From positions 1-64,000 of the forward strand of contig NZ_JAMZFT010000004.1 of NCBI RefSeq assembly GCF_024158125.1: a DNA stretch of 64,000 bases. The letters are read 5' to 3'. The notes under the pieces were generated by a model that saw only the letters and a list, made by a program, of their open reading frames with translations, did no database searches and had not been told where the DNA came from. This document shows positions 49,441-64,000 of the stretch, in pieces (positions within the stretch are counted from its first letter, which is position 1; each line of letters opens with the position of its first letter). This DNA comes from Futiania mangrovi (GTDB lineage: Bacteria > Pseudomonadota > Alphaproteobacteria > Futianiales > Futianiaceae). The translations under genes were made by a program, and so were the position numbers.

Positions 49441-51225
49441 TCAGATACCCCCTGCAAAAAGTGCCGCACCGCCCAGGCTGACCAGAAGAGCGCGCCACGC
49501 CACGGGTTTCTGCGAGATCAGGCCGTAGGAAATCGCGGCAAGACCCGCGCCAACCTTGAGAAGCGCGGCCAATGCCAGCGCAGGTTCGGTACCGAGCGCG
49601 ATCAGCGACGGATTGGCGACCATGCCCAGCGGCACGAGATAGAGCCCGAGCCCGAGCAGCATCGCCACGCCCGCGACCTTCAGCCAGTTCTCCCCCACCA
49701 TGCCCGAGGCAATGAACACCGCCCCGCAGACAGGCGGCGTGATGGTCGAGAGCAGCGCGTACCAGAACACGAACAGGTGCGCGGTGAGCGGCGGAAGCCC
49801 CAGCTTCTGAAGCGCCGGCCCGGCTACCGAGACGCAGATGACATAGGCCGCGGTCGTCGGCACCTCCATGCCGAGGACGAGGCAGGCAATAGCAGTCAGC
49901 AGCAGGGCGGGCCACAACTCGCCGCCTGCGCCGGCGAGGATCAGCGAGGTGATCTTTACGCCGAGACCCGTGAGACCCAGGACGCCAATCACGATCGAGG
50001 CGCAGATGATGATGGACGCGATCGTCGCGATCTGGCTGCCCGCCGTGATCAGCGCGGTTTCGATCCGCTCCCGTGTCCGTGGCAGGGAGAAGGTGAGGCG
50101 CCCGTCCAGAAACAGCAGCACGAAGCCCGCGAGGATGGCGACGCAGGCGGCGTATTGCGGGGTGTAGCCGCCAACGAACATGCGCTCCAGCAACAGAACG
50201 AAGGGCACGGCGAAGAACAGCGAGGTGACGAGCACGTCGCGCCGCGACGGCCGGTCCTCCGCCGCCACGGGCTTGAGGTCGTAGCGGCTGGCGAAGGCAT
50301 CGATGCCGATCCAGACGGTGGCGAAATAGAGCAGGGCGGGAAGCATGGCTGCCGCCATGATCTCGGCATAGGGGGTGCCGGTCAGTTCCACCATGACGAA
50401 GGCGCCCGCGCCCATCAGCGGCGGCATGATCTGGCCGCCGGAGGAGGCGACCGCCTCCACCGCGCCGGCGAGCGGGCGCGGATAACCGAGCCGCCGCATC
50501 GCGGGCAGCGTGATCGCGCCGGTGGATGCGACGTTCGCCGACGCCGAGCCCGAGATCGAGCCGAAGAGGGCCGAGGAAAGTACCGAAACCTTGGCCGCTC
50601 CGCCCTTCAGCCGCCCGGCGGCTGCGGTCGCGAGGTTCATGAACCCCTGGCCTGCCTCGCCCGCGTTCAGTACGGCACCGAAGATGACGAAGATCGCGAC
50701 CACGTCGACGGAGACGCCGGTCAGGCTGCCCCAGAGGCCGCCCTCGGCGATGGTCAGCGTGCCGAGGAAGCTCGACAGCGGAAGGCCGGGGTGTCCGAAC
50801 TCGCCCGGGAGATGCTGGCCGAAGAGGCCGTAGAGCAGGGCCAGCGCCGCAACCGTCGGCAGAGGCCAGCCGATGGCGCGCCGCGCCATCTCCAGCGTCA
50901 GCGCCAGCAGGACGATGGCGAGCGCGAGCTGACCGTTGCCCGACAGGAAGCCGTACTGGTCGGAAAGCGCGTCCGCATTCAGCGCGATCCACAGCGTTGC
51001 ACCCATCCCGATCGCGGAGAGCGCGAGGCCCGTGCGCAATTGCAGCTTCGTGCGTGCGGCGAACACGAGCACCCAGGGCAGCGCCAGCGCCATGTGCACC
51101 GGCCGTGCGACGAGGGCCGGCGTCAGTCCGGAGAACACGAGGCTGAGGTGGAAGGCCACCGAAACGGCACCGAGGGCGGCCCAGAAGAGCCGCCCTCGCG
51201 CAGAAAGATCGTTCTGCGGTGTCAC
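49441..51225 (-). CDS. TAXI-type TRAP transporter fused permease
   Basis: A 594-aa membrane protein joining the small (DctQ-like) and large (DctM-like) permeases, standard for TAXI systems. FGSISGSASANVASTGAITLP and SSGGQIMPPLMGAGAF are the fused-permease signatures, and ITPPVCGAVFIASG is the C-terminal one. It takes up an organic anion with the binding protein encoded 7 bp upstream. The substrate cannot be predicted. Confidence 0.9.
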   Translation of the reverse strand: MTPQNDLSARGRLFWAALGAVSVAFHLSLVFSGLTPALVARPVHMALALPWVLVFAARTKLQLRTGLALSAIGMGATLWIALNADALSDQYGFLSGNGQLALAIVLLALTLEMARRAIGWPLPTVAALALLYGLFGQHLPGEFGHPGLPLSSFLGTLTIAEGGLWGSLTGVSVDVVAIFVIFGAVLNAGEAGQGFMNLATAAAGRLKGGAAKVSVLSSALFGSISGSASANVASTGAITLPAMRRLGYPRPLAGAVEAVASSGGQIMPPLMGAGAFVMVELTGTPYAEIMAAAMLPALLYFATVWIGIDAFASRYDLKPVAAEDRPSRRDVLVTSLFFAVPFVLLLERMFVGGYTPQYAACVAILAGFVLLFLDGRLTFSLPRTRERIETALITAGSQIATIASIIICASIVIGVLGLTGLGVKITSLILAGAGGELWPALLLTAIACLVLGMEVPTTAAYVICVSVAGPALQKLGLPPLTAHLFVFWYALLSTITPPVCGAVFIASGMVGENWLKVAGVAMLLGLGLYLVPLGMVANPSLIALGTEPALALAALLKVGAGLAAISYGLISQKPVAWRALLVSLGGAALFAGGI

Positions 51226-51232
51226 GAAGCGG

Positions 51233-52189
51233 TCAGCGCAGGCTGTCCGGCACGGCGACGCCCGCTTCCTCGTAGTAGCGCAATGCGCCGGGGTGCAGCT
51301 TGCCCGTCACATTGGACAGCAGGTCCGGCGACACGGCCTTCCACCAGGCGGCGCTTTCGCCCATTTCGGCCTTCTTCGTCCAGAAGGTCTTGGTCAGCGT
51401 GTAGGCGGTGTCGTCGTCCATCGCGGTCGTCGCATAGGCGACCACCGGCAGGGAAGTGGTCACGGTGTCCGTGTCGACACCCGCATAGGTTCCCGCCGGG
51501 ATCACGAGGCGGGTGCGCTTTGTTTCCGCCACCTGCTCCTCCGTCATGGAAACGAGCGAGATGCCCGTGCTGGCGGCTGCCTCGGTGACGTTCGGGGCGG
51601 GGAAGGAGCCCGCGGTGACGAAACCGTCGATCTGGCGGTTCTTCAGTGCGCTGGCCGCATTGCCAAGCTCGGCGTCGGCGATCTTCACCTTGTCCTTCAG
51701 GCCGAACATCTCGACGTATTTTGCGCCCTCGTTGGCGCCGAAGGAGCCCTTGCCGAGCAGGATGGTCTTGCCTTCGAGATCGGCGAAGCTCTGCACGCCC
51801 GCGTCTGCACGCATCACGAAGTGCATGGTGAGCGACGGAATGGGAAAGAGCGCCCGGATCTCGTCGAACTTCGGGTTGCCCTTGTCCTTGAAGGGACCGG
51901 CGCCCTTCTGCGCCGCGCCGACGAGCGCCGGGGGCGTGGTGAAGACGTAATTTCCGGGCCGCACGGCCGCTTCCATCACGTTCTGGACCGATCCCTGGCT
52001 CTCCTCGACGGTCAGGATCACGCCGCCATCGGTCCCGGCCTTCATCGCCTCGGCCAGTTCGACGCCCATCTGGTAGTAGGACGTGCCGGCCTTGGCCGAC
52101 TTGTAGGTCACGCGGGTTTCCGCCTGGGCCCCGGTCGCGCCCGCGAGCAGGACACCGGCCGCGATCAGCCCCGTCATCATCCGCTTCAT
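51233..52189 (-). CDS. TAXI family TRAP transporter solute-binding protein
   Basis: A 318-aa periplasmic protein starting at 52189, with signal peptide MKRMMTGLIAAGVLLAG..AQA. The mature N-terminus VTYKSAKAGTSYYQMGVELA corresponds to the TAXI motif region. It delivers the ligand to the fused permease. Ligands of characterised TAXI proteins include glutamate and 2-oxoglutarate-like acids. No stem-loop lies between the two genes. Confidence 0.87.
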   Translation of the reverse strand: MKRMMTGLIAAGVLLAGATGAQAETRVTYKSAKAGTSYYQMGVELAEAMKAGTDGGVILTVEESQGSVQNVMEAAVRPGNYVFTTPPALVGAAQKGAGPFKDKGNPKFDEIRALFPIPSLTMHFVMRADAGVQSFADLEGKTILLGKGSFGANEGAKYVEMFGLKDKVKIADAELGNAASALKNRQIDGFVTAGSFPAPNVTEAAASTGISLVSMTEEQVAETKRTRLVIPAGTYAGVDTDTVTTSLPVVAYATTAMDDDTAYTLTKTFWTKKAEMGESAAWWKAVSPDLLSNVTGKLHPGALRYYEEAGVAVPDSLR

Positions 52190-52412
52190 GTTTTTCCTCC
52201 CGGTCTGAGCCGCTCTTTTGCTGGTATTCGAAACGCATCCATGCCGCATGGGCCGGTCCTGTCAAGCGTAACGCGCGCCTGCCGTCCCGATCCCGGCGAT
52301 TGCGTATCGCGACCGTCAGGAGTTGACTAACGAGGCGGTTACAACCTGCAATCGAGCATGTAGAGTGGATGTGCGTGCCGCTGGGGAGCACGTACCGCGC
52401 TGGCAGGCCACC

Positions 52413-52616
52413 ATGCGCCATCCGCTGTTAAGGCTTCTTCTCATGCTTGCGCCGCCCGTGGTCAGCGGGGGGGCCATTCATGTCGTCATGTCGGCGATGG
52501 GCGCGGACCCTTCGATCGCGCTCTTTCTCTCCGTCGTCGTTGGCCTGCTAACGCTTGTCCTGGCGTTCCTGCTGGTCCGGCCGTCCGTGCTCAGGATCCG
52601 CCGGAAGAAGGAGTAG
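52413..52616 (+). CDS. Small membrane protein of unknown function, two predicted helices
   Basis: A 67-residue protein from ATG 52413: MRHPLLRLLLMLAPPVVSGG, a second hydrophobic segment (IALFLSVVVGLLTLVLAFLL), and a basic tail RIRRKKE. The tail suggests both ends face the cytoplasm. I do not recognise it. Its last 26 bp overlap the 3' end of the convergent RiPP-cluster protease. A TTG 90 nt upstream is an alternative start. A role in peptide export or immunity is possible but unsupported. Confidence 0.5.
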   Translation: MRHPLLRLLLMLAPPVVSGGAIHVVMSAMGADPSIALFLSVVVGLLTLVLAFLLVRPSVLRIRRKKE

Positions 52617-53577
52617 GCCGGGGCGTCAGGTCGACCGCCTCGTTCCACATCAGATATCGCCCGCCGAAATGGATCCCGACGACGGCGCCCGTGGCGGGAT
52701 CGATCACCGGGGAGCCCGAGCTGCCGCCCAGGGTCGAGGCATCGTGCCGCAGGGTGTAGAGTGCAAGCTCCCGGCTCAGGATCCTGCCTGGCAGAACCCG
52801 TTTCACATTGTAGATGCCCCGGAAGATCCGCTGCATGACCTCGGCGTCGTTGCGCCGCGAGTCGAACGCCGGATAGCCGAGCGCGACCACGTCGGCGCCA
52901 GCGCGCGCGGGCTGCGCTGCGTGGGGCAGCGGAGAAGGGCAGCCGCCGGGCGCCATCTGCAGGACCGCGATGTCGAAGTGGGTGTGCACGCCCCAAATGC
53001 CGGTGACGGCGACCTCGCGGGTCTGAAGACCGCCGATCTCCTCCGCAAAGTCGACGCGCACGCCGACCCCCTCGCGGATGTGCCATCCGTGCACCGGGTC
53101 GTGCGATGCGAACGTCTCCACCACATGGCGGTTCGTGGCGACGAGATCCTCGGCGATCACGAAGCCGGTGCCGACCCAGTCGAGGTCGATGTCGCCTTCC
53201 GCCTCGATCCGGCCGGTCCGGGCCAGCGCGTGCTCGATTGCGGCGCGGTGTCCCTCCAGGTGCGCCCACTCTTCCGGCATGGGGAGGAACTGCCCGTCCT
53301 GCACCAGCACGGCCGGACGCAGCTCCGTGTGGACGATCGCCTCGAGGACCAGGGTATCGCGGTCGGTCAGCGCCTCGGGCGGGGTCGCCTCCGTCAGGCG
53401 CTCCGTCAGGTCGGCCATCTCCGCGGTCAGGGCGGCGGCTTCGGGCGCGCTTTCGGTGTGTGCATGTACCGCGCGGTAGGTCTTCCCGGTATCGAGACGC
53501 CCGCCCCGGGCGATCCAGCCGGGCCGGCAATTGCGGACGAGGCCCAGCAGGCGGCGGCGCTTGTCATGCGGGTGCAT
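52591..53577 (-). CDS. Trypsin-like serine protease of the RiPP operon
   Basis: A 328-aa chymotrypsin-fold protease. The triad is H151 (VATNRHVVE), D202 (HTHFDIAVL) and S287 (GGSSGSPVID). There is no signal peptide or membrane helix, so it should act in the cytoplasm, unlike most HtrA/trypsin-like bacterial proteases. About 130 residues precede the protease domain, partly helical and charged. Its start overlaps the cupin gene by 14 bp, making it the last gene of the RiPP operon. The likely role is leader removal from the modified precursor; this is inference. Confidence 0.85.
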   Translation of the reverse strand: MHPHDKRRRLLGLVRNCRPGWIARGGRLDTGKTYRAVHAHTESAPEAAALTAEMADLTERLTEATPPEALTDRDTLVLEAIVHTELRPAVLVQDGQFLPMPEEWAHLEGHRAAIEHALARTGRIEAEGDIDLDWVGTGFVIAEDLVATNRHVVETFASHDPVHGWHIREGVGVRVDFAEEIGGLQTREVAVTGIWGVHTHFDIAVLQMAPGGCPSPLPHAAQPARAGADVVALGYPAFDSRRNDAEVMQRIFRGIYNVKRVLPGRILSRELALYTLRHDASTLGGSSGSPVIDPATGAVVGIHFGGRYLMWNEAVDLTPRPTPSSGGS

Positions 53578-54436
53578 GGATGTCCTCCTTCAGGGCGCGG
53601 ACGACGAGTTCGGAGAGATCGCCCGGGGGTGCGGGCGCCTGCGCTCTGCCCGGGCGCCAGCTGTCAAGCGCAGCGCGCGTGACCACGGCCAGGGCGGGCG
53701 GCAGCAGGTGCCAGGCGCCGGGCGAGAGGCTCGGGCTATCGGCGTCGCGGGCGCGGACGAGGGCGTTGCCGTCCTCGACAAGATGCAACAGGCCGATGGC
53801 GGCATGAACCGCGCCCGAGGGGCCGTTCGCCGCCTGATGCGGCGTGCCCCGCGGCAGCCAGAGTGCGTCGCCGGCGCGCAGGACGACGCGCTCCGCCGAT
53901 TCCGGACCGCGCGGGCCGAGGCGTGCCGCAACGTCCAAGATCTTCTCGCCCGTCAGAACCAGCATCAGGACGTCGTGCGGATCGCGATGCCAGGGCAGCC
54001 CGGGTGTCTCCGGCGGCCCGGCATAGAGGTTGACCTGGCAGGGCTGCGCGGTTTCTGCCTCGAACGCGCGGGCGAGCCGGTCCCAGCCCGGCGATTGCGC
54101 ATCTGCTTTCTGGATGACGAGGGTCGCGCTGGCCGCGAGAAGCGCCCGCGCGCCGCGTCTTCCCAGATGACCGCCGGGTTCGAGGTGACGCGCAAGGTCG
54201 ACGGCGGCCGCCTTGCCCTCGATCCGGCGGACGGCCCGCACCTCCATGTCGGCGGGACGCGGGCGCAGGCCGTCGGCCAGAGCGGCGGCGAGCGTCAGCG
54301 GCGCTACGGTCTCCAACCGGGCGGCCACCCGCAGCAGTACCGCACCGCCCGTGCGCCGGGGGGCCGCCGCTATCTGCCGGCCGAGACGGCGGATCGCAAT
54401 GGCGTCCGAGGGTCGAACCACGCTGCGGTCAGACAT
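53564..54436 (-). CDS. JmjC-like cupin oxygenase (ribosomal-oxygenase type)
   Basis: A 290-aa protein. Residues about 130-220 match the JmjC/cupin_4 core: QVNLYAGPP, then LPWHRDPHD with H150 and D152 as probable Fe(II) ligands, LTGEKILDVA, and GDALWLPRGTPHQA with the third ligand H200. 2-oxoglutarate-dependent ribosomal oxygenases of this type hydroxylate His or Arg side chains of proteins. Located between YcaO and the protease in a RiPP operon, it may hydroxylate the precursor. Overlaps on both sides (8 and 14 bp) show translational coupling. Confidence 0.75.
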   Translation of the reverse strand: MSDRSVVRPSDAIAIRRLGRQIAAAPRRTGGAVLLRVAARLETVAPLTLAAALADGLRPRPADMEVRAVRRIEGKAAAVDLARHLEPGGHLGRRGARALLAASATLVIQKADAQSPGWDRLARAFEAETAQPCQVNLYAGPPETPGLPWHRDPHDVLMLVLTGEKILDVAARLGPRGPESAERVVLRAGDALWLPRGTPHQAANGPSGAVHAAIGLLHLVEDGNALVRARDADSPSLSPGAWHLLPPALAVVTRAALDSWRPGRAQAPAPPGDLSELVVRALKEDIHAPA

Positions 54437-55316
54437 GGCGCCCTCCCTTCAGTGCACGGACGACGGTCCCCCCGAAGCCGCGGAAGGCGGGCGGCGTCGC
54501 ATCGGCAAAGACGAGCCCGCTGGCGTCGAAGGCCTCTGCCGGGGTGATGACCGGCTGCACGTGCCCGTGTGTGCCCGTGGCGTGGAGGTCCCGGATCGTG
54601 CGTATCCCGAAGGGCGCGAGCAGTGCGTCGCCTGCACCGACGCTGCCCGGCAGCACCTCGCCTTCCGCTGCGAGATGCGCGAGCGCGGCCTCCCGCACAG
54701 CCTTTTCCGCGGAGGCTTGCGGGTCCGGATCGGCGGCGGAGCCCGCCCCCGCGATGCGGCCCCGGCCATCTGCGATGACGGCGAGCATCGCAGGGATCGG
54801 CGCCGGCAGCAGGTAGAGCGTCGCTTGATTCTTGCCGCAGCATTGCGTCCCCGCCGCCGCCACACCGGGGCCACCCGTGGACAGGGCGTCCCTGAGCGCC
54901 GCCCGCTCGATCAGTTCGAGCCCGGCGCGCAGGCAGGCCGTCTGCCTGTCGAAGGCGAAGGCCAAGCCCTCCGACGTTGCGGGCAGAACCGGTCCGCGTG
55001 CGTCGCAGTAGGGCAAATAGACGCGCGCCGCAGGCACCCAACCCGCCGGCACGCCGGAGAACGTTCGGGCAGGGACCTCTGCCGGGGTGCCGTCGGGCAC
55101 CAGCGCCGCGCCGAGCCGTTCGAGACATTCACCCAGCGCCCGCGCTTCCGCATCCTCGCGCGTGGCCCCCGCGCCGAGGCCGAGGGCCACATCCGCCGCC
55201 CCGCCCATGGTGCGCGCGTCGGCTCCTTTCGCCACTGCCACCCAGAGGCCGAGATCTGCAAACGCCCGCGCCTCCAGCGACTCCACCAGACCCGCGAGTG
55301 CCGATGCGTCACGCAT
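54429..55316 (-). CDS. Compact YcaO-domain protein
   Basis: A 295-aa protein with the YcaO ATP-binding pattern: DAEARALGECLERLG, AGLELIERAALRDAL (Glu residues for Mg-ATP) and ASAEKAVREAAL. YcaO enzymes activate peptide backbones with ATP to form azolines, thioamides or amidines. It is about 100 residues shorter than typical YcaO proteins and ends soon after GGTVVRAL, without a Pro-rich C-terminus. No E1-like, TfuA or dehydrogenase partner is encoded nearby. Start 55316 overlaps the SPASM gene stop by 8 bp; the frame is open further upstream but only as a shadow. Confidence 0.82.
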   Translation of the reverse strand: MRDASALAGLVESLEARAFADLGLWVAVAKGADARTMGGAADVALGLGAGATREDAEARALGECLERLGAALVPDGTPAEVPARTFSGVPAGWVPAARVYLPYCDARGPVLPATSEGLAFAFDRQTACLRAGLELIERAALRDALSTGGPGVAAAGTQCCGKNQATLYLLPAPIPAMLAVIADGRGRIAGAGSAADPDPQASAEKAVREAALAHLAAEGEVLPGSVGAGDALLAPFGIRTIRDLHATGTHGHVQPVITPAEAFDASGLVFADATPPAFRGFGGTVVRALKGGRHV

Positions 55317-56601
55317 GCGCGGCCTCGCGGCGGGCGTCCGCTTCGAGGCGTGCGAAGTGTGCGAACACTTCCGCCAGCCCGCAGCAGCCGCCCGCTGTGC
55401 CGCGCAGGTCGGCGATGTGCGCCTCGTGCGGGCACCAGCCCTTGCAGCGCCCGAACCACTTGCACGCGGCGAGCCGGGTCTGGGCGGCGCGGTAGCGGTC
55501 CTTGAGCGCGCGCATCTCCGTCGAGGCGCGCATCTCCGCGAAGCTCCGCTCCGCGAGCGTGCCGAGCACATGGGCGTCGGAGCCCAGGAACTTGTCGCAG
55601 TGCATGACCTGCCCGTCCGGATCGACGCCGAAATAGTCGCCAAGGCAGGGGCCGCGCAGCTCGCAGAAGCCCGTCCCCGTGCCCTGGTAGGCTGCGTGGA
55701 GCGCATCCAGTTCCCGCACGGCGAGCCGCCGGTCGGGATGGGCGCGCAGCGCGTCGAGCAGGCGCACGAGAAAGCGGGCAAACGCCTCCGGCGCGAGGCA
55801 GGGACCGGATCCGTCCGCCGACGACGGGCGCACCGGCAGGAAGGCGGCGGCATCGACGCCCGCAGCCTCCAGCGCATCCACGAGGTAGAGCGGATCGAGG
55901 GCCGCGATCTCCTCCGTCACGACGACCAGCGCGCCGGCGAAGAGGCCCGCCGCCTTCAGCCGCCCGATCCCGTCCGCCGCCGCGTCGAAGGAGGGCGTGT
56001 CCGCAACCGTCCTGCGGGTGCGGTCGTGCATCTCGCGCGGGCCGTCGAGGCTGACGCTCGCGCGCACGCCGAACAGTTTCCATAGCGCGATCATCTCGTC
56101 GGTCAGCCCGACGCCGTTCGTCTGCAGCGAGTTGCGCACCATCTGGCCCGGCCGCCGCAGCCTGGCTTGCAGCCAGAGGAAGCCCAGCGTGCGCCGGACG
56201 CCGAGCAGCGACGGCTCGCCCCCGTGCCAGACGAACTTGAGCGTGGCGGCGCGCGCATCCTCCGCGGCACGGCGCAGCATCAGCACCTGGGTGCGCGGTG
56301 TCATCTGCTGGCCGGGTCCCTCGCGCCAGTCGTTGCAATAGGTGCAACGCAGGTTGCAATGGCGCGTCAGCTTGGCGATCAGCACCAGCGTTGCAAAGCC
56401 GTCCGGAGGTGTGAGAGCGGGCGGCCCTGCCCGTTCGACCTCGGCGAAGACCGGATCCTTCAGCGGAAGGTCGCGGGCGGCGACGCTGCCCAGGGCGTCG
56501 AGCGGCCTCTTGCCGCCTGCGCGCGCCTGCGCGAACGCTTCCCGGCCCGCGGGCGCGAGGGCTGAAAGCGCATCCGTTTCGATGTCCGCCGCCTCGGTCA
56601 T
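55309..56601 (-). CDS. Radical SAM/SPASM peptide maturase
   Basis: A 430-aa radical SAM enzyme. The SAM [4Fe-4S] motif is C82-x3-C86-x2-C89 (HCNLRCTYCN), followed by WHGGEP. The C-terminal SPASM-type region has C313, C319, C335, C380, C386, C390, C406 and C407, enough for two auxiliary clusters. Such enzymes form thioether or C-C crosslinks in RiPPs, including three-residue cyclophanes at aromatic residues. The precursor's Trp150, Trp162, Phe168 and Phe189 are possible targets. The gene lies 12 nt after the B12 radical SAM gene. Confidence 0.88.
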   Translation of the reverse strand: MTEAADIETDALSALAPAGREAFAQARAGGKRPLDALGSVAARDLPLKDPVFAEVERAGPPALTPPDGFATLVLIAKLTRHCNLRCTYCNDWREGPGQQMTPRTQVLMLRRAAEDARAATLKFVWHGGEPSLLGVRRTLGFLWLQARLRRPGQMVRNSLQTNGVGLTDEMIALWKLFGVRASVSLDGPREMHDRTRRTVADTPSFDAAADGIGRLKAAGLFAGALVVVTEEIAALDPLYLVDALEAAGVDAAAFLPVRPSSADGSGPCLAPEAFARFLVRLLDALRAHPDRRLAVRELDALHAAYQGTGTGFCELRGPCLGDYFGVDPDGQVMHCDKFLGSDAHVLGTLAERSFAEMRASTEMRALKDRYRAAQTRLAACKWFGRCKGWCPHEAHIADLRGTAGGCCGLAEVFAHFARLEADARREAAHA

Positions 56602-56613
56602 CGTTCCGCCCCC

Positions 56614-58512
56614 TCAGCGCGGCTTGAAGGGCAGGGGCAGGGCGAGGAACAGCCCGCCCTCCGCCGCCACGACCCCGTCTGCGGCGAGCAGGCGCAGCGC
56701 CCGGTCGACGCGGTTCTGCGGCTCGCCCAGCTTCTCCGCGATGCGTGCCGCGGTCAGCGGCTTCTCGATGATCGACTGGAACACGCGCGCCTCGCGGCCC
56801 CGGTAGCGGACGACGGCGGGCTCGGCGCTTGTGCGCGCGTCCTCGACCGTCACGACGTCGGGTGCCGAGAAATAGGTAAGCCGCGGCGACCAGTCCTGCA
56901 TCCAGGCCTGTTTCCATGCCTCGATGGCGGCCTCGATCTTCGCATAGGCCCCCTTGGGCAAGGTGTTTTCCAACTCGTACTCGAAGAAATAGGCGACCTG
57001 CTCCTTGTCCATCTCCGGCGGCAGGATGAAGTCGAGCGAGCGTTCCGGGCGGCGGAATTTCCGGGGGAACGCCTTCTCGTCCTTGTAGAGCGGGCTGAAG
57101 CGTTCGAGCCAGATGCGGATGCCTGCCGACGGCGGCTGGAGGTGGTGCAGTTTCGCGAACAGCGCGGCCTGCGCGTCGTAATCCTCCCGGCTCTCGCCCG
57201 GAAAGCCCCAGAGCACGTTCCAGCTCACGGCAATGCCGTGGTGCGCGGCCCAGCGCAGCATGTTGAGGTTGTCGAGCCCGCGCACACCCTTGCGCATCAG
57301 CTTCAGCACGTCGGTCGACAGGCTCTCGATGCCGGGCTGGATGGTGCGGATGCCGGCGGCGGCGAGCGCGGCCATGTCCGCGGGCTTCAGGTTCGACTTG
57401 ACCTCGTAGAACAGGTCGTAGTTGACGTCGGGCCGCGACAGCCGAGGCAGCAAGGTCTCCATGTAGGAGCGGTCGATAATGTTGTCGACGGCCTCGAAAT
57501 GATAGGAGCGGTGCCGGCGGGCGAGTTCGCCAAGCTCCTCCAGCACCTTCTCTGCGGGCTTTGAGCGGAACTTCATGGAGAGCGCGTTGAGCCCGCAGAA
57601 GGTGCAGTGCTGGTTCTCGCCCCACCAGCAGCCGCGCGCGCTCTCGAACGGCACGCGGATGTCGTTGCGCAGGCCGGGCGGAAGGATGCCGAAATACTCC
57701 GCGCGCGCGAAATACTCCTGGTAGTCGGGCACGGGATTGCGGTCGAGATCGGTGACGAGCGGCGCGGGCGGGTTCTGCACGGGTGCGCCGTCGCTGCCCC
57801 GCCAGGCAAGCCCGCGCACCTTGTCGAACCCCGCGCCATCGGCGATGGCGCCGAGCAGCACGGGGAAGGTGCGGTCGGCCTCGCCGCTCAGGATCAGGTC
57901 GATCTCCGGCACGGCGGAGAGCCATTCCCGCGCCATCTCGCGCTCGAAGTTCGCGCCGCCATACACCGTGACGACGTCCGGCAGCATCTGCTTGAGCCGC
58001 CGCCCAATGGCGATGGCCGCAGCCGTCTGCTGGAAGGTCGAGGTGAAGCCGGCGACGTCGGGCGCTGCCCGCGCGATCTCGGCCGCGGCCAGCTCGACGA
58101 ACGCGGGAACCACTTCCGTCCGGACGTGCAGCAGCAGGTCGCGGTCGCGCCGGTCGAAAGCCGCGATCAGTTTCTCGCCCGTCGGGTCGGGCGCGCGGTC
58201 GCCGAAGGCGGCAAGGGAAAACAGCCAGTCGCCGACCGCGACGCCGCGGTCGTTGGCGACCGCCTCGTAGAAATCGGGGCTGGCCATGGCGGCGAAATCG
58301 AGGAAGAGGTGGTGCGTCGTCGCGTGCCACCCCGCCTCGCGCGCGATCTCCGACAGGAGCCCCACCTGGATCGACGGACGGCGCACGGAATTGAACGGCG
58401 CCGCGATCAGGGCGATGCGCCCGGCGGGCGGGGCGGCGTGTGCAGCCTCCCCGTCCGTGGCGCGGGCCCCCGCCGGAAGACCCGCTTCCGGCAGAGACGT
58501 CTCGAGCGTCAT
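56614..58512 (-). CDS. RiPP maturation radical SAM C-methyltransferase, B12-type
   Basis: A 632-aa enzyme. Residues about 30-230 form a cobalamin-binding-like domain (APFNSVRRPSIQVGLL). The radical SAM motif is C295-x7-C303-x2-C306 in RGCWWGENQHCTFCGLN, the unusual spacing I know from the ribosomal-peptide maturation radical SAM protein 1 family. Members methylate unactivated carbons of ribosomal peptides. The C-terminal 90 residues look like a winged-helix domain (LTAARIAEKLGEPQNRVDRA). It starts 4 nt after the precursor stop, which ties it to that substrate. Confidence 0.9.
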   Translation of the reverse strand: MTLETSLPEAGLPAGARATDGEAAHAAPPAGRIALIAAPFNSVRRPSIQVGLLSEIAREAGWHATTHHLFLDFAAMASPDFYEAVANDRGVAVGDWLFSLAAFGDRAPDPTGEKLIAAFDRRDRDLLLHVRTEVVPAFVELAAAEIARAAPDVAGFTSTFQQTAAAIAIGRRLKQMLPDVVTVYGGANFEREMAREWLSAVPEIDLILSGEADRTFPVLLGAIADGAGFDKVRGLAWRGSDGAPVQNPPAPLVTDLDRNPVPDYQEYFARAEYFGILPPGLRNDIRVPFESARGCWWGENQHCTFCGLNALSMKFRSKPAEKVLEELGELARRHRSYHFEAVDNIIDRSYMETLLPRLSRPDVNYDLFYEVKSNLKPADMAALAAAGIRTIQPGIESLSTDVLKLMRKGVRGLDNLNMLRWAAHHGIAVSWNVLWGFPGESREDYDAQAALFAKLHHLQPPSAGIRIWLERFSPLYKDEKAFPRKFRRPERSLDFILPPEMDKEQVAYFFEYELENTLPKGAYAKIEAAIEAWKQAWMQDWSPRLTYFSAPDVVTVEDARTSAEPAVVRYRGREARVFQSIIEKPLTAARIAEKLGEPQNRVDRALRLLAADGVVAAEGGLFLALPLPFKPR

Positions 58513-58516
58513 GGGA

Positions 58517-59092
58517 TCAGCGGCCGAAACCGCCCGGCAGGCCGCCGAGGCCGCCCGGATTGACCGGGTTGGTCAGCGTGCCGCCCCGGAACGCCGGGTT
58601 GGTGCGCCAGCCGCCGACGTCGACCTTGTCGAGATCCTTCGACCAGTCGACCCCCACGCAGGCGACGCCGACACCCACGCCGACCGCATCCTGGACCGTG
58701 CCTCCGCCGATGTTGCCGAGGCGGCCCTGCTCGACCTTCGTCAGGCCGGCGAAGGCGTCGCTCAGATGCACCGCACGCATCTTCGCCAGGTTGTCGACCT
58801 GGATCTTGCGCAGGTTCTCGACGCGGCCTTCCTTCGATGCAACGCCTTCCAGATGGTGCGCCGCGGCGCCGAAGATACCCAGGAGATAGAGGCGCTGGCG
58901 GTCGCTCAGCTTGTTCTCGATGCTCTCGATGGCGTCGGAGATGCCGTCAAGCTCCTCGTCGTCCAGTTCGATCTCCGTCATGCCGCCGGACGCGGCCCCG
59001 CCCTGGCGCAGCAGGGCGAGCACCTCGTCCAGCCGTTCCTCCAGCGCGTCGATGCGTTGTTCAAGCCCTTGCAGCGATCGTGTCGTGGCCAT
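58517..59092 (-). CDS. Candidate RiPP precursor, 191 aa with Gly-rich C-terminus
   Basis: First gene of the six-gene operon. Residues 1-32 form a predicted coiled coil (LEQRIDALEERLDEVLALL), 38-60 are acidic, and 60-125 are helical, all fitting a long leader. From residue 127 the sequence turns Gly-rich: GNIGGGTVQ, VGVGVGVACVGVDW, VGGWRTNPAFRGG, TNPVNPGGLGGLPGGFGR. It has one Cys (145), two Trp (150, 162) and two related TNP-x-GG units. I do not recognise a family. A ribosome site (AGGGGAG) precedes ATG 59092. The call rests on position, size and composition. Confidence 0.7.
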   Translation of the reverse strand: MATTRSLQGLEQRIDALEERLDEVLALLRQGGAASGGMTEIELDDEELDGISDAIESIENKLSDRQRLYLLGIFGAAAHHLEGVASKEGRVENLRKIQVDNLAKMRAVHLSDAFAGLTKVEQGRLGNIGGGTVQDAVGVGVGVACVGVDWSKDLDKVDVGGWRTNPAFRGGTLTNPVNPGGLGGLPGGFGR

Positions 59093-59160
59093 GGTGAAGC
59101 ACTCCCCTCTTCGGTTCTATGGCGTTTCCGAATGCGACTGGGCGCCGGGGCGGTGTTCAT

Positions 59161-59189
59161 GTCTATCCGCCGCTTCGGCAAAGATAGAC
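59161..59189 (-). promoter_or_regulatory. Leader hairpin in the RiPP operon 5' region
   Basis: On the minus strand GTCTATC and GATAGAC form a 7-bp outer stem around an inner GCCG-AAG-CGGC stem, 29 nt in total. It starts a few bases past the predicted -10 and about 70 nt before the precursor start. It may protect the transcript or form a regulatory fold. Confidence 0.45.
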
Positions 59190-59192
59190 TGG

Positions 59193-59221
59193 CAAATAAC
59201 AAGGTTAAAGGAAAGTAGCAA
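59193..59221 (-). promoter_or_regulatory. Predicted promoter of the RiPP operon
   Basis: On the minus strand TTGCTA (59221-59216) and TATTTG (59198-59193) are 17 bp apart. The -35 touches the Fur-like palindrome. The -10 is weak, which would suit a regulated promoter. Confidence 0.4.
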
Positions 59222-59236
59222 AATGCGAATCATTTT
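59220..59236. promoter_or_regulatory. Fur-like palindrome AAAATG-N5-CATTTT
   Basis: Perfect 6-bp arms around CGAAT. The core ATGCGAATCAT resembles gamma-proteobacterial Fur boxes (ATGATAATCAT). It overlaps the -35 of the RiPP promoter. Alphaproteobacteria often use Irr or RirA instead, so the binding protein is uncertain. Confidence 0.4.
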
Positions 59237-59251
59237 ACACAAAATTTCATG

Positions 59252-61135: not shown

Positions 61136-62263
61136 ATGAAGAGAATGAAGACGGTCGCCAGCGCCGTCCTGATGCTTGCGGCTGGCGCGCTTGCCGGCAC
61201 GGCGCAGGCGGAGCTTCCGAAGTCCATGACCTGGACAGCCTATGATGTCGGCTCCTCGGGCTATGTCGAGGCGTCCGCGATGGCCGACGCGCTGATGAAG
61301 GAAGAGAGCACGCGCGTGCGGATCATGCCGTCGGGCACCTCCATCGGCCGCCTGCTGCCGCTGAAGACGGGCCGGGCCGCCTATGGCTGGCTCGCCAACG
61401 AGATCTATTTCGCCGCCGAAGCGATCCACGACTTCGCCGCGCAGGAGTGGGGCCCGCAGGACCTGCGCGTCATGCTGGGCCGTCCGGCGGGCTTCGGCCT
61501 GGGTGTGGCGGGCGACGCGGGCGTCAAGACGCTCGCAGACCTCAAGGGCAAGCGGATCGCGCGCGTGCAGGCGAACCCCTCGGTCAACATCAAGGTGGAA
61601 GCCATCCTCGCCTTCGCCGGCCTGACCTGGGACGATGTCGAGGTGGTGGACGTGCCGTCCTACGGCGCCTCGCTGCGCGCCCTCGTCGAGGGCACCGCGG
61701 ATGCCGCCGGCGGCGTGCCGACCGCGGCGACCTTCCGCGAACTGGAGGCGAGCCCGCGCGGTATCGTCTGGCCGAGCCTGCCGGACGACGACAAGGCGGG
61801 CTGGGACCGGGTGAAGAAGGTCGGCTCCTTCTTTGCCCCGATCACCGAGACGGTGGGCGCGGGCCTGTCGGAGGACAATCCCGCGCAGCTGATCGGCTAC
61901 CGCTACCCGATGATCGCGACCTACGCCGACACCTCCGCGGACGAGGTCTACGCGGTCACGAAGGCGATCGTCGAGACCTACGACCTCTACAAGGACGTCA
62001 ACAAGATCATGCCGCGCTGGCAGGCGAAGATCGCGGGCCATCCCCCGGCAGACGCGCCGTTCCACGAGGGGGCGGTGCGTTACCTGAAGGAGATCGGCGT
62101 CTGGACCGCCGAGGACGAGGCCTGGAACCAGGACCGTCTTGCCCGCATGAAGGCGGTTCAGGCCGCCTGGGACGCGGCGATGGACGAGGCGCTGGAGAAG
62201 AACCTGCCCGGCAAGGATTGGGAAGCGTTCTGGGCGGACTACCGCGCCAAGAACCTCCAGTAA
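61136..62263 (+). CDS. TAXI family TRAP transporter solute-binding protein
   Basis: A 375-aa periplasmic protein behind AGGGAGG, with signal peptide MKRMKTVASAVLMLAAGALA..AQA. The mature start MTWTAYDVGSSGYVEASAMA is the TAXI region. It is longer than the 318-aa TAXI protein at 51233 and only distantly similar, so the ligands probably differ. It is followed by a stem-loop and its permease gene. Confidence 0.87.
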   Translation: MKRMKTVASAVLMLAAGALAGTAQAELPKSMTWTAYDVGSSGYVEASAMADALMKEESTRVRIMPSGTSIGRLLPLKTGRAAYGWLANEIYFAAEAIHDFAAQEWGPQDLRVMLGRPAGFGLGVAGDAGVKTLADLKGKRIARVQANPSVNIKVEAILAFAGLTWDDVEVVDVPSYGASLRALVEGTADAAGGVPTAATFRELEASPRGIVWPSLPDDDKAGWDRVKKVGSFFAPITETVGAGLSEDNPAQLIGYRYPMIATYADTSADEVYAVTKAIVETYDLYKDVNKIMPRWQAKIAGHPPADAPFHEGAVRYLKEIGVWTAEDEAWNQDRLARMKAVQAAWDAAMDEALEKNLPGKDWEAFWADYRAKNLQ

Positions 62264-62292
62264 TCCGGTCCGCCGGTTTCCTCAGCCGCGCC

Positions 62293-62319
62293 GGGGCGCC
62301 GTCGACAAGGCGGCGCCCC
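62293..62319 (+). repeat. Stem-loop between TAXI binding-protein and permease genes
   Basis: A perfect 9-bp stem, GGGGCGCCG with CGGCGCCCC, around a 9-nt loop and without a T-tract. It is the fourth such element between a binding-protein gene and the next transporter gene in this window. Confidence 0.6.
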
Positions 62320-62345
62320 GTGCACCTTCAGCCCGGATCTGACCG

Positions 62346-64000
62346 ATGAGCACAGCCTCCACACCTGCGGCCGGGGTGCCTGCCGCGCCTGCTGCCGAAC
62401 CGCACGAAGACCCGCGCTGGGGCTGGGACCGCCAGGGCCGCCGCATGGGCGGCGCGGCCTATCTGGTTGCGCTGGTCCTGTCGGCGGCAGGTCTCGCCAT
62501 CGTCGTGAACCAGGTGTTCAATCTCGGCGCGTTCGGGTTCCGGCCGCTCAGCACGGCCTTCTACTATCTCGTGATCGCGATCTTCCTGCCGGTCGCATTT
62601 CTCGCCTATCCCGCACGGGCCGGAGATGCGCAGCGGGTGCGCTGGTACGACTGGCTGCTCGGCGCGCTCACCATCGCGGTGGGCGGCTACCTCTCCCTCA
62701 ATGCCGAGAACATCCTGACGCGCGGCTGGGATATCGAGGCGCCCGCCGCGCCGACGGCGGTCGCCGGCGTGCTCGTGCTGCTGGCGCTGGAAGGGGTGCG
62801 CCGCTGCGGCGGGACGCTGCTGTTCGTCATCTGCGGCGTCTTCGCTGTCTTCCCGCTCTTTGCCGACCACATGCCGGGCGTTCTGTGGGGGATCCAGTAC
62901 ACGGCGCCCGAGGCCGCACGCGCCCATGCCATGGGGGTGGAGAGCATCATCGGGATTCCCATGCGGGTCGTGTCCGACCTGCTGATCGGCTTCATCCTGT
63001 TCGGCGTGGCGCTGGTGGTTTCGGGCGGCGGGACGTTCTTCATGAACTTCGCCATGGCGCTGATGGGCGCACGGCGCGGAGGGCCGGCCAAGGTGTCGAT
63101 CCTCGCGTCGGGCTTCTTCGGCAGCCTGTCGGGCAGCGTGATCTCGAACGTGATCTCCACGGGCTCGATGACCATTCCGACGATGAAGCGGTCCGGCTAC
63201 CCCGCGCACTATGCGGGTGCGGTGGAGGCCTGCGCCTCGACCGGCGGGACTCTGATGCCGCCCGTGATGGGGGCCGTGGCCTTCATCATGGCCTCGTTCC
63301 TGAACGTGCCCTACACCGACGTGATGCTGGCGGCGCTGGTGCCTGCGGTGCTGCTCTATCTCGTGCTGTTGCTGCAGGCGGATGCCTATGCCGCGCGCGT
63401 CGGACTGAAGGGCCTGCCGCGGGCGGAGCTTCCGGCCCTCGGCGCGACCCTGCGCCAGGGCTGGGTCTATCTGCTGAGCCTCGCGCTTCTGATCTACCTC
63501 CTGGTGTTCGAACGGATCGAGTCGATGGCGCCCTTCTATGCGGCGCTGCTGCTGCTGGCGACGGCGGTGGTGCTGCAGAAGGGGATGGGCCGGGTCCGGA
63601 TCGCGCTCGACATGGCCGTGGAAGCCGGCGTGAACATCGCGAACCTGGTAGGCATCCTGGCAGGCATCGGCCTGATCGTCGGGGCGCTCTCGATGACGGG
63701 CGTGGGCACGGCCTTCTCCCGCGAGCTGGTCAATTATGCAGGCGACAACATCCTGCTGCTGCTGGCACTGGGGGCCCTGACGAGCTTCATCCTCGGAATG
63801 GGGATGACGGTCAGCGCCTGCTACATCTTCCTCGCGATCGTGCTCGCGCCAGCGCTCGTGCAGGTCGGCCTCAACGAGATGGCGAGCCATCTCTTCATCC
63901 TGTACTGGGGCATGCTGTCCTACATCACGCCGCCGGTGGCGCTGGCGGCCGTGGCGGCTGCCGGCATCGCCGGGGCGCCCGCGATGAAGACCGGCGTCAT
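62346..64000 (+). CDS. TAXI-type TRAP transporter fused permease (cut by window end)
   Basis: My translation from ATG 62346 runs open to the window end, 551 codons without a stop. The first 40 residues are hydrophilic (MSTASTPAAGVPAAPAAEPH), then membrane segments follow. GFFGSLSGSVISNVISTGSM and STGGTLMPPVMGAVAFIMAS match the fused TAXI permease, and SYITPPVALAAVAAAGIAG near the end is the C-terminal signature. Most of the protein is therefore present. It works with the binding protein at 61136. Confidence 0.9.
   Translation, partial: MSTASTPAAGVPAAPAAEPHEDPRWGWDRQGRRMGGAAYLVALVLSAAGLAIVVNQVFNLGAFGFRPLSTAFYYLVIAIFLPVAFLAYPARAGDAQRVRWYDWLLGALTIAVGGYLSLNAENILTRGWDIEAPAAPTAVAGVLVLLALEGVRRCGGTLLFVICGVFAVFPLFADHMPGVLWGIQYTAPEAARAHAMGVESIIGIPMRVVSDLLIGFILFGVALVVSGGGTFFMNFAMALMGARRGGPAKVSILASGFFGSLSGSVISNVISTGSMTIPTMKRSGYPAHYAGAVEACASTGGTLMPPVMGAVAFIMASFLNVPYTDVMLAALVPAVLLYLVLLLQADAYAARVGLKGLPRAELPALGATLRQGWVYLLSLALLIYLLVFERIESMAPFYAALLLLATAVVLQKGMGRVRIALDMAVEAGVNIANLVGILAGIGLIVGALSMTGVGTAFSRELVNYAGDNILLLLALGALTSFILGMGMTVSACYIFLAIVLAPALVQVGLNEMASHLFILYWGMLSYITPPVALAAVAAAGIAGAPAMKTGV

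Follow-up and report, generated by a model that had tools for sequence, protein, structure and literature searches.

A rare six-gene cassette, probably for RiPP-type maturation, with a 191-residue candidate substrate in Futiania mangrovi

Why would two radical S-adenosylmethionine (SAM) enzymes, a YcaO-like protein, an oxygenase and a protease be encoded one after another, behind a gene for a protein of only 191 residues? This question is raised by six consecutive minus-strand genes (52591-59092) within the first 64,000 nt of Futiania mangrovi contig NZ_JAMZFT010000004.1 (this whole stretch is called the window here). An initial annotation, made from the window alone, proposed that the genes form a single operon for maturation of a ribosomally synthesized and post-translationally modified peptide (RiPP), with the 191-residue protein as the substrate. 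Linkage of the genes in other genomes and the uneven conservation of the candidate precursor support this proposal, and the locus is probably a self-contained RiPP-type maturation cassette. The coordinates, strand and spacing of the genes (+4, +12, -8, -8, and -14 between successive genes, from precursor to protease) were borne out by an open reading frame (ORF) check, and hidden Markov model searches (NCBIfam, Pfam) agree with the family given for each of the five enzymes, the match of the YcaO-like protein being real but weak.

The first line of evidence is the occurrence of the genes as a unit. When genomes were scanned for the B12-binding radical SAM enzyme, Sphingopyxis sp. LK2115 was the sole close relative (67% identity). 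Its locus (L022) contains all six genes in the window order, with a 15-nt gap 3' of the precursor gene followed by overlaps of 4-8 bp. Further cassettes with identical gene order, their genes likewise close together or overlapping, are present in G508 (Sphingomonadaceae, locus L042) and G1142 (Sphingopyxis, locus L055); the intact cassette is thus found in four genomes, the window host and three Sphingopyxis. The co-occurrence of the B12 radical SAM gene with the other five, which had been put forward as a check, is therefore seen in all three of the latter. The Sphingopyxis loci have common flanks, a GntR regulator gene upstream and a universal-stress gene downstream, that differ from those in the window, a short-chain dehydrogenase/reductase (SDR) gene and tripartite ATP-independent periplasmic (TRAP) transporter genes. 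Similarity by blastn between the window and LK2115 is restricted to the six genes (L022 9427-16304). Since the same six genes lie inside two unrelated neighbourhoods, the cassette is a real unit, both ends of which are delimited twice.

The cassette is rare. Of the 80 genomes of the genus Sphingopyxis, 3 have it; a sample of 398 genomes of the family contained 2, and among 299 genomes sampled from the phylum it was in the window's own genome only. The host's order is represented in the genome collection by this genome alone, and the wide gap between that order and Sphingopyxis suggests horizontal spread. Across the class, the JmjC query found only distant ROX-type proteins, and TIGR03975, the family of the B12 radical SAM enzyme, was found in six other genomes, none with another cassette gene (the match in G373 is on a 7.4-kb contig). 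Neither the precursor nor the YcaO query had a match among plasmids, and the SPASM profile, run against 398 genomes of the phylum, found just distant enzymes, mostly adjoining sulfatase genes.

The second line of evidence is the pattern of conservation within the 191-residue protein. The initial annotation had reasoned that its proposal would fail if homologous loci kept the enzymes and never this gene, or if a precursor were found elsewhere and the protein were conserved throughout like an enzyme. Each of the three further loci has the gene, which is single-copy, and its conservation is very uneven. The window and Sphingopyxis proteins are 61% identical overall; by region, identity to the L022 protein is 11/38 at residues 1-38, 12/21 at 39-59, 16/23 at 60-82 and 12/27 at 83-109, and then 18/21 at 110-130, 21/24 at 131-154, 9/10 at 160-169 and 14/15 at 177-191. 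The tail is nearly invariant while 55% of the fourfold-degenerate sites differ between the window and LK2115 genes. Between the LK2115 and L055 genes, codon differences in the tail (129-190) are 22 silent and 0 replacement, versus 28 silent and 6 replacement in the leader. The coiled-coil/helical N-terminus drifts. The single Cys (145) and the two Trp residues (150 and 162) sit in the tail, whose nearly invariant motifs run VGVGVGVACVGVDWSKDL...GGWRTNPAF...NPGxLGGLPGGFGR; the conserved region, with VGVGVGVACVGVDWSKDL, GGWRTNPAF and NPGGLGGLPGGFGR, is proposed to provide a recognition segment and the modified core. A frozen tail following a drifting N-terminal half is the leader/core pattern of a RiPP precursor and is unlike that of an enzyme. 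The locus shows one hallmark of RiPP clusters: the precursor gene accompanies the enzymes in every case, and the protein's core is better conserved than its leader.

The protein has no match in NCBIfam and none above cut-off in Pfam, and structure models from three-row alignments reached a mean predicted local distance difference test score of 41 (39 for the YcaO-like protein). A comparable layout, with an N-terminal coil, an acidic segment and a Gly-rich end, is present in a TIGR03975-linked precursor of Paracoccus denitrificans (L032 8583-8975); the similarity of the two proteins by blastp is not significant.

The B12 radical SAM enzyme scores 639 bits against TIGR03975 (cut-off 281.85), and its CX7CX2C motif (residues 295-306, CWWG...HCTFCGLN) is invariant in an eight-member alignment. 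A relative in S. clavuligerus adjoins a gene for DUF5825, and such a pair is reported, in work cited in PMC12257519, to be C-methylating in clavusporin biosynthesis. Given this pairing, C-methylation is the default for the cassette enzyme. However, BipD and PbsB, which are also B12 radical SAM enzymes of RiPP pathways, form biaryl bonds without methylating (PMC12707348, PMC12257519). The C-terminus of the cassette enzyme (about residues 547-625) is a winged-helix-like module, the family profile of which matches PqqD with an hhalign probability of 88% (reversed control, 0.2%). Other TIGR03975 enzymes were seen in several settings. On a plasmid of P. denitrificans HAMBI_2443 (L032 8583-14047), the gene lies between that of a Cys-rich, 130-residue precursor and an E1-like/YcaO/SagB azole set, a methylating cluster of the thiazole/oxazole-modified microcin (TOMM) type. 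On a plasmid of Methylomagnum ishizawai (L070 3428-10387), its neighbours encode a SPASM maturase (TIGR04463), a 2OG-Fe(II) oxygenase and a RiPP precursor of 679 residues with Cys at every fifth residue, so that the two kinds of radical SAM enzyme are again paired with an oxygenase. At L039 (G360:C1:7608892-7612669), it occupies two reading frames separated by ~2.3 kb and has probably been interrupted.

The NCBIfam scores of the SPASM enzyme are highest for DarW (240 bits), DarE (184) and a sulfatase maturase (151), each under the curated cut-off. In a small tree, the window, Sphingopyxis, Cupriavidus and Vibrio DarE sequences join, apart from the sulfatase maturases; support for this grouping is 92/91, although the tree carries a long-branch warning. 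DarE alone makes both the Trp-Trp ether and the Trp-Lys carbon-carbon bond within WNWSKSF of darobactin (PMC9055067). The precursor tail contains W150-S151-K152, the triad that DarE crosslinks, and on this basis the SPASM enzyme is predicted to form a Trp150-Lys152 cyclophane, a prediction that we judge about as apt to fail as to hold. Since no W-x-W precedes this triad, no Trp-Trp ether is expected, and the enzyme may still resemble DarE at the Trp-Lys step. Its nearest relative outside the cassette (40% identity) is from Cupriavidus sp. KK10, where it adjoins a small ORF containing VWEKKNK. This small, unannotated cassette on plasmid p1 (L043 8257-11385) includes the ORF with the VWEKKNK tail (110-149 residues), a 78-residue ORF, the DarW-like radical SAM/SPASM enzyme, which scores 318 bits against DarW, and a glycosyltransferase weakly similar to GT4-conflict, and is possibly a glycosylated daropeptide-like system.

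The last two enzymes retain their active-site residues. The JmjC protein scores 39 bits against Pfam JmjC_2, and in an alignment to MINA53 its H150-x-D152 and distal H200 fall on the iron ligands; this triad is kept in the orthologues. Biphenomycin owes its hydroxylated ornithine to such a JmjC protein, BipG (PMC12707348). The protease scores 72.5 bits against Pfam Trypsin_2, its H151/D202/S287 triad is invariant, and it has an extra N-terminal region of about 130 residues and no evident signal peptide. Its plasmid-borne kin are the N-terminal parts of fusions with DNA/RNA non-specific endonuclease, phospholipase D (PLD)-like or S8 peptidase domains (for example, L045 4779-6707 and L046 5809-7785) and, in Paracoccus sp. 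MA, lie next to an AAA ATPase. Such proteins look like protease-gated conflict effectors.

What the sequences show is the make-up and order of the gene set, its maintenance as a unit, the precursor-like pattern, the enzyme families and the intact JmjC and protease active sites; from these we infer each chemical step, the crosslink site, the place of cleavage and any function of the product. The enzymes would recognise the N-terminal helical part of the precursor and the conserved segment LSDAFxGLTKVEQGRLG, and the modified core would be the last ~60 residues. The DarW/DarE-like enzyme would most likely bond Trp150 to Lys152, with W162-R-T as a possible further site. The TIGR03975 enzyme would most likely C-methylate core residues, and the JmjC protein would most likely hydroxylate a core side chain. 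The YcaO-like protein, if still active, would target the peptide backbone around Cys145. The protease would then free or trim the tail within the cell.

Several observations weigh against a RiPP-type cassette of this kind. The DarE and DarW scores of the SPASM enzyme fall far short of the cut-off of 650 bits that applies to each model, and W-x-K is a short motif. The C-terminal module of the window B12 enzyme taken alone matches PqqD at a probability of 0.7%, which GntR and IclR controls equal; because the window sequence by itself fails to match, a leader-binding role for this module (as a RiPP recognition element) is only suggested. The cassette is known from only two deep lineages, as the three Sphingopyxis loci are close kin to each other. 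The six-gene unit lacks genes for export, regulation or immunity. Finally, the YcaO-like protein has lost the equivalents of N187 and E191 of E. coli YcaO, and no E1-like partner or dehydrogenase (ThiF, TIGR03882 or SagB by NCBIfam and Pfam) is encoded in the unit.

The activity of the YcaO-like protein is doubtful, judging from its sequence. Against Pfam YcaO (PF02624), the window protein scores 52.7 bits, the LK2115 orthologue 19.5, under the cut-off of 25.7, and the L042 copy gives no match; the SagD model gives the cassette protein 33.5 bits (cut-off 219). With no ThiF, TIGR03882 or SagB protein either, the unit falls outside the TOMM group, in which YcaO goes with an E1-like partner or leader-binding domain and usually with a SagB dehydrogenase. 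A search of solved structures with the YcaO profile found no match. Together with the JmjC protein (~43% identity between window and Sphingopyxis), it is the least conserved of the cassette proteins (~45%). Of the E. coli residues that we take to form the ATP/Mg site (E75, E78, N187, E191, E199, E202 and R203), equivalents of all but N187 and E191 are kept. Such poor conservation, the missing partner and the lost residues make backbone activation the weakest claim of the initial annotation. Its picture of four chemistries acting on one substrate goes further than the sequences show, since B12 radical SAM enzymes can crosslink rather than methylate and the YcaO-like protein is divergent, partner-free and partly devoid of its ATP site. 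The pathway could instead be a reduced one, in which only the pair of radical SAM enzymes, possibly with the JmjC protein, still modifies the tail and the YcaO-like protein is a catalytically weakened remnant or a scaffold. Besides the divergence just described, the window copy does not have the N-terminal CxxC and CxC region of the Sphingopyxis YcaO proteins (L022 13335-13440, L042 7945-8049), and the window JmjC protein does not have the C-terminus of the Sphingopyxis copies, which are about 45-70 residues longer there. However, each of the four cassettes retains the YcaO frame, in which E63, E66, E134, E137, R138 and E209 are invariant, and another YcaO that is above the Pfam cut-off (L090) likewise does not contain E191. 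A reduced pathway, which we regard as a real possibility though not the favoured one, is compatible with either a RiPP or a protein as the product.

The absence of export and immunity genes makes protein maturation the main rival to a RiPP. In this case, the 191-residue protein would be retained whole, with its modified tail as an active site or binding surface and the protease as a quality-control factor or activator. There are parallels: McrA is modified by YcaO and B12 radical SAM enzymes, and an amine dehydrogenase subunit is crosslinked by a SPASM enzyme. The large size of the precursor, the near-freezing of its tail across a deep divergence, the missing regulator and a protease with no evident signal peptide would all fit. 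On the other hand, the N-terminal half drifts (11/38 identical) in a way unlike that of a folded enzyme subunit, the unit has a dedicated protease, and TIGR03975 genes elsewhere adjoin small precursor genes; protein maturation is thus unlikely. A conflict or defence system, in which cleavage by the protease, as sensor or as effector switch, would free the modified protein to act as a toxin or inhibitor, is considered because of the fused nuclease, PLD-like and S8 peptidase kin of the protease, and is compatible with weak matches to the PADLOC NACHT-associated and reverse transcriptase (RT)-protease models and with the patchy distribution of the operon, but the remainder of the unit gives no support (no other PADLOC component was found, the cassette has no nuclease, STAND or ATPase gene, and the flanks are catabolic and transport genes), making it very improbable.

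A RiPP-type cassette remains the preferred reading, and its parts are collected in Table 1.

Table 1. Genes of the cassette and the conserved precursor tail, with window positions
Feature	Position	Strand	Basis
Candidate precursor, 191 aa	58517-59092	-	ORF; orthologues in three Sphingopyxis cassettes
Conserved precursor tail, about residues 110-191	58517-58765	-	Regional identity with L022
B12-binding radical SAM enzyme, 632 aa	56614-58512	-	TIGR03975, RiPP maturation radical SAM C-methyltransferase
Radical SAM/SPASM peptide maturase, 430 aa	55309-56601	-	DarW/DarE neighbourhood; CNLRCTYC motif
Divergent stand-alone YcaO-like protein, 295 aa	54429-55316, ATG at 55316	-	Pfam YcaO
JmjC_2/cupin Fe(II)/2-oxoglutarate-type oxygenase, 290 aa	53564-54436	-	Pfam JmjC_2; HRD...H iron triad
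Trypsin-like serine protease, 328 aa	52591-53577	-	Pfam Trypsin_2; triad H151/D202/S287

TAXI-type TRAP transporter genes flank the cassette on both sides (49441-52249 and 61136-64000), together with CoA-transferase, pirin and SDR genes. Because the six genes are a complete, minimal unit with an almost frozen substrate, the product and the individual steps are open to coexpression in a laboratory host. The absence of exporter and immunity genes raises the question of whether a RiPP-like product can have an intracellular role.

How, then, does the cassette compare with known systems? It resembles the daropeptides (darobactin, DarA/DarE) in that its SPASM enzyme is nearest to the DarW/DarE models and its substrate tail contains W-S-K (PMC9055067). 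However, the scores are far under the cut-offs, W-x-W and a DarBCD exporter are absent, the precursor has 191 rather than about 58 residues, and there are four further enzymes. With the biphenomycin-type RiPPs (bip, pbs and bpm), it shares a B12 radical SAM enzyme, a JmjC-type hydroxylase and a protease acting on one precursor (PMC12707348, PMC12257519). Those systems also use a multinuclear non-heme iron-dependent oxidative enzyme (MNIO), an arginase and a TldD metalloprotease, none of which is found by NCBIfam or Pfam among the six cassette proteins; the cassette instead has the SPASM, YcaO-like and serine protease proteins and no FxF-type core. RiPP clusters with TIGR03975 likewise have a B12 radical SAM enzyme of the same family beside a precursor gene (with DUF5825 in S. 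clavuligerus, next to the gene of a pheganomycin-type precursor in Streptomyces globosus, and at L032 in P. denitrificans), but the cassette is without DUF5825 and the other partners, and identity is only 33-40%. The L032 TOMM cluster is also similar in having a YcaO and a precursor with an N-terminal coil and Gly-rich tail, and differs in its full E1-like/YcaO/SagB set. Bottromycin pathways combine B12 radical SAM methyltransferases with YcaO enzymes that work without a classical E1 partner, as in the cassette; unlike the cassette, they have a precursor of about 44 residues with a C-terminal follower, an amidohydrolase and a P450, and no SPASM or JmjC enzyme.

The initial statement that no characterised pathway has this gene set agrees with our literature search, which gave none, most subscription journals being outside its coverage; in particular, no paper among those searched joins a DarE/DarW-like crosslinking enzyme and a B12 radical SAM enzyme with a JmjC oxygenase and a YcaO that has no partner, all on a single substrate. 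The locus fits no described class, whether daropeptide, TOMM or biphenomycin-type, and is probably a rare RiPP-type pathway. More tentatively, and with considerable doubt, it could represent a new RiPP class. A protein-sized precursor would in this case be crosslinked between Trp and Lys, C-methylated or crosslinked a second time, hydroxylated on a side chain and modified by a YcaO without a partner, and then released inside the cell by a dedicated trypsin-like protease akin to those of conflict systems.

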